Assembly (NCBI RefSeq): GCF_022267315.1
Contig: NZ_JAIKLE010000001.1
Coordinates: 186,001-250,000 of the forward strand
Length of the DNA: 64,000 nucleotides
Source: Maribellus maritimus
GTDB taxonomy: Bacteria; Bacteroidota; Bacteroidia; Bacteroidales; Prolixibacteraceae
Direction of reading: 5' to 3'
A program made the translations under genes and the position numbers. The notes under the pieces were generated by a model. It saw nothing but the letters and a program-made list of their open reading frames with translations. It searched no databases and had not been told where the DNA came from. This document shows positions 78 through 48,391 of this stretch, piece after piece. The first letter of the stretch is position 1. Every line of letters begins with the position of its first letter.

Positions 78-796
78 TTACACCGTCATTTCCGGCTCTT
101 CCTTTTTGCCCCGTTTTTTCACCGTTTCATTATTGTCGGCAATAATTTCGGCAATGGTGCGGGCTAATGCGCCATAGGTTGCTTCATCTACAATTTCCAT
201 GGCACGCAGGTATACTACAATTTTGCCGTTTAGCAAATCAACAAGCTCTCTTTTAATCCCGAAGCACTGATTGCGGTGCTTTCCTGTGCTTTCTCCTGTT
301 CATAAGCCAAACGCGCAGCTTCAAACTCACTCTGGGCTGCCTGTAAAGCGGCAATAAGTTCGGCACAACCCGACAGTTGGGCAATTGCATCCTGCAGATT
401 GGGTTTTGCGAGGTCGTTAAGCAGCGAAGCCACCAGCGAAGATTCCGAAGCATAGCTTTTGCCCGTAATCGAAACCCCGTTTTTATCAAATATTTTTTTT
501 ACTTTTTGCGCCGCTGCTTTTACATTATCATCAGGGTGATGCAGCAAGCCCAGCAGCAAATAATAAAACGAGCGTATCTCACTGTCGCGTTTTTCATCTT
601 TTTCTTCCAAGTTACTTTCCGTTTTGCTTCGGTTGATGGCCGATGTAAGATTTTTTGAAAACGACTCAAGAGTGTTAAACATGTGAGGCAAATGGAGATC
701 AGAGTCTAATCCCGCATTTTTGAATGCGCTGATGATACGCATTGAAACAGCGTCAACCTCAGTAACGCGGCTTTTACTTAACAAATTGGGAATCAT
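78..796 (-). pseudogene. DUF6261 family protein, frameshifted near its 3' end
   Basis: The N-terminal 188 codons read without interruption from the ATG at 796 to a stop at 230. The protein is mostly helical and charged, with no signal peptide or membrane segment. From about position 250 downwards a different frame continues smoothly: it encodes KRELVDLL, then a stretch containing NGKIVVYLRAM and DEATYGALARTIAEI, ends with a K/E-rich tail, and stops at 78. That tail is what I recognise as the conserved end of Bacteroidota DUF6261 proteins, usually about 240 residues long, so the two pieces together give the expected length. The total span (719 bp) is not a multiple of three, which fits a single-base indel. 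Function is unknown for the family. It could be a real pseudogene or a sequencing error. The 41-bp hairpin array lies directly upstream of its start. Confidence 0.72.
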
Positions 797-839: not shown

Positions 840-1175
840 GTACTTGTTTAGGGTGCATCAACATTTTGTTGATTTTTCAATTTTAACCAAAACCATCGGT
901 TTGGCAAAAAAAACGATGATGTTGCTCGACATAATCTTATGCCTCTGGTTTAATTCTCAGATTGTCAGACCATGGCACAATGCCACTGTTTGTTTTTGCA
1001 TCAGAATCGCTTTGGGCAAAATGCCATGGTTTTACTTTTTGTATTTTTAGCTCATGGCACGGTGCCACGCATCCACTTTTTTGCAGGAAAAGGAATGGCA
1101 CTTTGCCACCTCTTTGTTTTTCTCCGCAGCAGATAACAGCACCATGCCACACTATATTTTTAAAGCCACAACAAT
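840..1175 (+). repeat. Array of short hairpins with a 41-bp period (array 1)
   Basis: Short inverted repeats follow each other at near-constant spacing. Clear units are ATCAACA-3-TGTTGAT centred at 865, CATCG(G)TTT-8-AAACGATG at 906, TGGCA-3-TGCCA at 979, GGCA-3-TGCC at 1020, TGGCAC-1-GTGCCA at 1061 and TGGCA-3-TGCCA at 1102. A degenerate unit is centred at 1143. Centres are 41 bp apart except for one 73-bp step between 906 and 979, where a weaker CATAA-2-TTATG lies at 935. The later units share a consensus of about ATGGCACNNTGCCAC followed by roughly 25 bp with a T-tract. The arms of the first two units differ in sequence but keep the spacing. No open reading frame explains it. A related array lies at 48.06-48.39 kb in the opposite orientation. 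Confidence 0.8.
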
Positions 1176-48054: not shown

Positions 48055-48391
48055 ACCGAAAATATTGCTCCCGCAAAAAATGCGGTTTGACACGGTGGCA
48101 TGATGCCATTGTCTGCGCGGAAGAAAAAGCCGGCTTTAAAATTTATCCATTGCTTCCCCGGAGCAAAAGAAAGATTTAGAGATTTGTTTAAACCTTGTCC
48201 GGGTAAAAAGTGGGGCTATTAAGATATCTCCATTACTTCCCCAAAACAAAGGGAAGCGTTTAAGATTTAACCCAGCCCGGGCAAAAAGGGAAGCCTTCAA
48301 GATATCTTCATCGCCTCACATGGAAAAAAGAAGACCTTAAAGATTTGTTGATTGCGGGTGAGAAATAATTTCTATTTGCAAATTCCCACAA
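48055..48391 (-). repeat. Decayed 41-bp-period hairpin array (array 2)
   Basis: Between two convergent genes lies a degenerate tandem array. Aligning the CCATTG-like anchor on the plus strand gives copies at about 48062, 48106, 48147, 48193, 48230, 48272, 48308 and 48349, so the spacing is 36-46 bp with an average near 41. Clear hairpins are CCGCA-5-TGCGG at 48071-48085, TGGCA-3-TGCCA at 48096-48108 and CTTCCC-9-GGGAAG at 48236-48256. The reverse complement around 48100-48130 matches array 1 around 1113-1150: TTTTTCT-CCGC-GCAG-AA-GCA-ATGCCAC in the same order. The array therefore belongs to the same family, in opposite orientation, and is more eroded. Confidence 0.7.

Follow-up and report, generated by a model that had tools for sequence, protein, structure and literature searches.

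Type-specific palindromic arrays at a four-turn pitch accompany DUF6261 genes of Bacteroidota and may act as their private DNA addresses

What purpose does a string of short palindromes serve when it stands at an exact spacing of 41 bp in front of a DUF6261 gene, and is the arrangement peculiar to one locus? The string in question lies in a stretch of 64,000 nucleotides from Maribellus maritimus, called the window below. It consists of five palindromes of one sequence type (TGGCA-nnn-TGCCA), each exactly 41 bp from the next, which stand upstream of a DUF6261 gene with a frameshift. The locus has the following features.

939..1161, no strand: 41-bp periodic array, given as the extent of the self-match at offset 41
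973..985, no strand: dyad 1, TGGCACAATGCCA, centre 979
1015..1025, no strand: dyad 2, GGCAAAATGCC, centre 1020
1055..1067, no strand: dyad 3, TGGCACGGTGCCA, centre 1061
1096..1108, no strand: dyad 4, TGGCACTTTGCCA, centre 1102
1139..1147, no strand: dyad 5, GCACCATGC (core only), centre 1143
890..902, no strand: palindrome AAACCATCGGTTT, one base off the 41-bp register, of unsure array membership
857..873, no strand: palindrome ATCAACATTTTGTTGAT, unlike the array units in sequence, outside the 41-bp register and left out of the unit count
230..796, minus strand: DUF6261 (PF19775) reading frame of 188 aa, which follows the family profile as far as position 112 of 154
80..236, minus strand: C-terminal DUF6261-like stretch in another frame, judged by eye against the intact gene of the same genome; either the gene is frameshifted or the assembly is in error
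878..885, minus strand: possible -7 promoter element TAAAATTG between the array and the start codon, with one mismatch to TAnnTTTG (loose pattern match; L003, -89 from ATG)

The original prediction had placed at least seven hairpin centres here. Those at 979, 1020, 1061, 1102 and 1143 hold, with exact 41-bp steps, and a run of T, which had been claimed for most hairpins, can be read behind each of the five dyads. The centre at 865 is that of a genuine palindrome, which is out of register and has another sequence, and the one at 906 is weak, as it scores solely through a 9-base arm with mismatches; the 73-bp step that had been described therefore joins two unlike things. A dyad scan gave no convincing palindrome at 938.

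Between periods of 20 and 70, the sequence of 797-1396 has its top score, 34.1, at period 41, and this is reached at no period by any of 300 Markov resamples, the highest of which scored 21.3, so that the array withstands the shuffling proposed as a check on it. A comb test over seven positions from 897 to 1143 gave a score of 30, which was matched by 0 of 340 resamples in that phase and by 0 of 60 when the best of the 41 phases was taken; one other phase of the real sequence likewise scores 30. The dyad search with column permutation yields z 5.7 for this array, and Tandem Repeats Finder does not have it among its listed repeats. Resampling, in the window and at the family loci described below, excludes chance as the source of the periodicity.

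The window gene scores 63.1 bits against the PF19775 profile, for which the curated cut-off is 27, and thus belongs to DUF6261. The same genome has an intact DUF6261 gene, preceded by a separate array with period 42 and a different palindrome, and a third copy (L002) with an internal stop and no array. Since its gene is frameshifted and its array is weak, the window copy may be decaying.

The arrangement is not peculiar to the window. A tandem array with a period of 41 or 42 was found in the 600 bp upstream of 105 of 116 DUF6261 loci, in each case above all 100 resamples, where the loci are best matches plus chosen paralogs and not a random draw. As controls, 103 segments of the 64 kb gave four arrays, one of which is a genuine second one, and the stretches downstream of the genes gave 5 in 116, the two strong ones at loci without an upstream array. 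When all periods from 20 to 70 were allowed to compete (30 resamples), 102 loci were significant, with the best period at 42 in 55 of them, at 41 in 45, at 43 in one and at 54 in one; the many arrays of about 41 bp near DUF6261 genes that had been named as the supporting outcome are thus there, 100 of the 102 significant best periods being 41 or 42. For the count of 116, start codons were set by the family profile, and we left out L100-L107 and L109 (nine presumed duplicates), L024 (222 bp upstream), L004-L009 (the same places as L001-L003) and L123, which is under the family cut-off and unmatched by the family profile built here. In an earlier pass 16 of 93 loci were without a significant array, and some of those had wrong start codons, since reset. 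L122 is counted as negative (21.0 against a null maximum of 76.0), though a more distant stretch, beyond its earlier start on the upstream side, gives 66.7 at period 42. Also among the 11 negatives are L096 and L098, a DUF6261 clade with the array downstream and, on the other side, a gene that we take to be RAYT-like.

In four related genomes (G111-G114) all 39 DUF6261 genes, one of them a fragment of 58 residues, have arrays above all 30 resamples. Period 41/42 was found at 16 of 20 DUF6261 loci from other families of the phylum. Array lengths run from 75 to 394 bp and over; at some loci the array ends less than 50 bp before the start codon. The signal is weak in Parabacteroides distasonis; for the upstream array on a plasmid-labelled Parabacteroides record it is weak at 17.6, the highest of 100 resamples being 13.8. 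The family is present in 75 of 140 genomes of the window's taxonomic family, where a single genome can have as many as 14 matches. In a sample of 395 genomes from the whole phylum it is present in 12, counting that of the window. Carriage by plasmids or viruses gained little support: that plasmid-labelled record was the one found, and one query each against viral contigs and phages gave no confirmed relative. Nor is there a conserved neighbourhood, as the largest of the 20 largest neighbour clusters spans 8 loci and none is general. In this clustering a transposase gene, again presumably RAYT-like, lies near 7 of the compared loci.

What is kept within these arrays is foremost their pitch. Between cores, 382 of 419 steps are 41 or 42 bp, a count that is partly circular because the arrays were preselected for a period of 41-43; steps of 20-21 were found in L131 and L132. 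B-DNA has 10.4-10.5 bp per turn, and both 41 and 42 bp fit four turns, so that the proposed period of about four helical turns holds across loci. A period fixed for each protein clade is not what we see: the two periods change 26 times along a 101-row tree, against a mean of 40.4 after shuffling, that is, they are clustered on the protein tree, yet swap between close relatives. In the test against column permutation 45 of 87 arrays have dyads at p<=0.05 (mean z 2.9) and 42 have no significant dyad, the 87 not being independent since orthologous arrays were counted separately. In the arrays displayed, the arms are by eye often kept while loop and spacer drift. The units differ among gene types and the spacing of about four turns stays, which bears out the earlier view that sequence varies more freely than spacing or the shape of the palindrome.

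To whom, then, does a unit belong? Among the 39 genes of G111-G114, protein pairs of at least 84% identity have matching arrays in 20 of 26 cases, the other six being L256-L259, L256-L255, L029-L023, L058-L047, L058-L084 and a fragment pair. At 73% to 81% identity the arrays match in 2 of 25 pairs, both between genomes (L055-L083 and L083-L042), and in same-genome paralog pairs above 50% identity they match in 0 of 7. All array matches in this set fall within protein pairs above 50% identity. For the gene types tested, the units are thus mostly common to close orthologs and not to paralogs of the same genome.

Five DUF6261 arrays (L047, L046, L043, L001 and that of the window) were run against whole genomes, and two of them, L047 and L046, have distant sister arrays with their unit. 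The L047-type array occurs in G113 at its own locus and three distant places, in G112 at two places besides the ortholog's own array, and in G111 as two short matches. The L046 type has its own locus and three more places in G113, and it recurs in G111, G112 and G114. Of the remaining three, L043 gave only its self-match in G113 plus 52 bp in G114, and neither L001 nor the window array has a convincing sister in their genome (G000), the best other match of the latter having E 0.019. A control with reversed queries over 800 kb gave 0 matches, against 5 places for the real arrays. In G113 at least tens of kilobases separate every sister place from the nearest DUF6261 match. Judged by eye from their flanks, five of the seven distinct sister sites have tandem genes on their two sides and the other two have convergent ones; at four of the seven the same flanking genes are present in at least two genomes. 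One intergenic site in G113 (L269:5140-5843, C1 at about 2.05 Mb) has adjacent arrays of the L047 and L044 types. Against recognition by a matching protein stands the persistence of an L046-type array in G111, as none of the nine DUF6261 proteins of that genome is more than 50% identical to L046.

The strongest single sign that arrays at separate places answer to one reader is a concerted change in one lineage. The G111 ortholog L058 is 91% identical to L047, yet has a different array unit, and this L058-type unit also stands, at 68-78% identity, at two distant G111 sites whose orthologous places in G112 or G113 have the L047 type. Counted by profile, old and new units number 9/1, 6/1, 7/0 and 11/0 in G113, and 8/1, 8/2 and 9/1 in G112, compared to 0/6 in the own array of G111 and 2/7 and 2/8 at its distant sites; since it was the genes' own arrays that supplied the profiles, the rows for those arrays are not independent, and the distant rows are. 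The distant G111 sites thus retain some units of the old type beside the new. By eye the two unit types are alike over roughly half of their sequence, so that about half of the unit has been replaced. Conversion between arrays could give an identical picture without any protein.

The best reading of these results is that every DUF6261 protein goes with a phased array of its own type in cis, and that some at least also have such arrays in trans. In its full form this describes a chromosomal system in which each paralog type would own a private code phased at four turns, placed beside the gene and, in the case of some types, also at a few conserved positions far from it, with all sites rewritten together; we put this forward tentatively, at slightly below an even likelihood. 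For the statement that the window array is the private DNA address of its own DUF6261 gene, our judgement is evenly balanced.

A rival that needs no recognition is satellite DNA, that is, a recombination or mobile mechanism that spreads and homogenises the arrays, with DUF6261 travelling beside one copy. Arrays without DUF6261 do exist, gene conversion also gives concerted change, and the RAYT-like gene is near 7 of the compared loci. Such a process would however leave unexplained why an array is found upstream of so many DUF6261 genes (105/116), why the period of 41/42 recurs in other families of the phylum (16/20 loci), and why the units are unlike in 7 of 7 same-genome paralog pairs above 50% identity. 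We consider it rather unlikely.

Another option is that the array acts as RNA: it would be transcribed into a repeat RNA to which the protein binds, after the pattern of type III toxin-antitoxin systems, with DUF6261 as the toxin or an RNA-binding effector. In those systems (ToxIN, CptIN), whose antitoxin is a repeat RNA according to the part of PMC8860590 available to us, tandem repeats likewise stand directly upstream of a small protein gene, the order seen at the 105 of 116 loci, and the close approach of some arrays to the start codon, within 50 bp, would fit as well. The arms of the arrays point the other way. In the 45 arrays with dyads, 1835 arm cells comprise 1328 with the main pair, 95 compensatory changes, 75 G-U, 91 A-C and 246 other mismatches; since G-U on the gene strand is about as frequent as A-C, there is no sign of an RNA strand. 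Of 93 loci, 8 have a promoter-like motif near the array start, and in 26 such a motif separates the array from the start codon, frequently some 90-112 bp ahead of the ATG. This evidence is weak both ways, because near the array start the opposite strand has the motif just as often as the gene strand. In addition, sister arrays stand alone without a DUF6261 gene, Rfam has no match at 600-1500 of the window, and no ToxN-like endoribonuclease was matched in Pfam, NCBIfam and PADLOC scans of 20 DUF6261 members. The original prediction had left open whether proteins line up on one face of the DNA or an RNA carries evenly spaced stem-loops; the near equality of G-U and A-C and the interchange of 41 and 42 between relatives favour the former and not the latter. 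Hairpins in an RNA, for which neither the mismatch asymmetry nor Rfam gave support, are thus improbable.

Equally improbable in our estimate is ordinary autoregulation, with the array as the operator string of a local repressor and nothing more: dyads, helical phasing, a position upstream of a possible promoter and the absence of a sister for three of the five searched arrays are what it would give, but two types have sister arrays between tandem or convergent genes, and simple operators are shorter as a rule than the 75 to 394 bp and over of these arrays.

Returning to type-specific recognition, each DUF6261 protein (ca 244 aa) would bind its own unit on DNA, directly or through a partner, and probably as a dimer at the dyad. 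As consecutive units are four helical turns apart, the bound proteins may stack on one face of the DNA and bind cooperatively. An array at its own gene would then serve the control of that gene, and sister arrays between tandem or convergent genes could organise or insulate the DNA. Direct binding is what we infer from the arrays, and since the proteins are mostly acidic (median pI 5.0, 5-95% range 4.7-9.1, 123 proteins), an adaptor role is possible. In a Pfam scan of 20 members all 20 match PF19775, and each other family is matched by one member, with a best E of 0.0015. When remote homology was sought in Pfam, PADLOC, NCBIfam, PHROGs and PDB sequences, the matches were scattered and came from one or two members, the best outside PF19775 having E 0.00013 (one member, NCBIfam), and no known DNA-binding family was matched convincingly.

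Arrays are also found away from DUF6261. In the window there is a second one, between convergent genes and without a DUF6261 gene:

48106..48350, no strand: array with steps of about 41, less regular than at the DUF6261 loci

By eye it has the spacer motif CCGGGcAAAAAG in common with the array of the intact gene; searches with the two arrays found nothing strong, and the sharing was not confirmed. In 864 kb of the window genome 20 tandem features pass the threshold, few of which resemble DUF6261 arrays. A small array with steps of about 40 bp and CCCGGGCAA units (L180:14561-14674, contig C135 of G000) lies away from the three DUF6261 matches. In the first 800 kb of G113, 21 arrays were picked from 75 features: three are DUF6261's own, two are trans matches and 16 are unmatched. 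Other non-coding arrays of that genome have periods such as 21, 22, 42, 105 and 106.

Two of the 16 unmatched arrays, 90% identical, lie upstream of a pair of proteins of ca 240 aa that are 93% identical (L213:5332-6051 and L227:153-872), each about 95 bp downstream of its matching 42-bp array. A 219-aa protein (L221:6310-6966, minus strand) has a 42-bp array about 250 bp upstream. For both kinds of protein, 100 tested residues gave no Pfam match above cut-off, and homology to DUF6261 was not detected for either; they are possibly a second and a third array-linked family. Similar arrays therefore extend wider than DUF6261, and with these G113 proteins of ca 220-240 aa, which are not detectably related to it, behind arrays of equal pitch, DUF6261 may be one of several array-linked families.

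Among known systems, the palindromic intergenic repeats REP/BIME are, like the DUF6261 units, type-specific and tied to one protein family beside a copy, in their case RAYT. According to the part of PMC2817692 available to us, REP sequences exceed 100 copies per genome and alternate in orientation in BIMEs. The DUF6261 units are instead in tandem at a fixed 41/42 bp with few sister sites, three of five arrays having no convincing sister and two having three distant places each in G113; and the partner of REP is a tyrosine (Y1) transposase, for which the Pfam scan gave no match among the 20 members. The iterons and partition centromeres of plasmids are phased sites of one protein near its own gene, with iterons about two turns apart. 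DUF6261 arrays resemble them in being phased sites near a gene, to which the protein would bind, and differ in being chromosomal, with up to 14 paralogs per genome, type-specific units and, for some, distant arrays; the same scan of 20 members matched no replication or partition family. CRISPR arrays also have regular repeats, often with palindromic parts, but in DUF6261 arrays it is the whole 41/42-bp unit that recurs, with drift instead of identical repeats and with no unique spacers. On the features tested, the arrays do not belong to known RNA families, CRISPR or REP/RAYT. In the parts of the open-licence literature available to us there is no description of DUF6261-linked arrays, and the family is named there only in work that is unrelated by title.

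The association with phased arrays provides the uncharacterised DUF6261 family with a strong and testable clue to its function. If paralogs do have private, switchable DNA codes, they would constitute natural protein-DNA pairs in which the evolution of recognition can be studied, with G111 versus G112 and G113 as a ready natural experiment, and they would perhaps represent a new layer of chromosome organisation in Bacteroidota.
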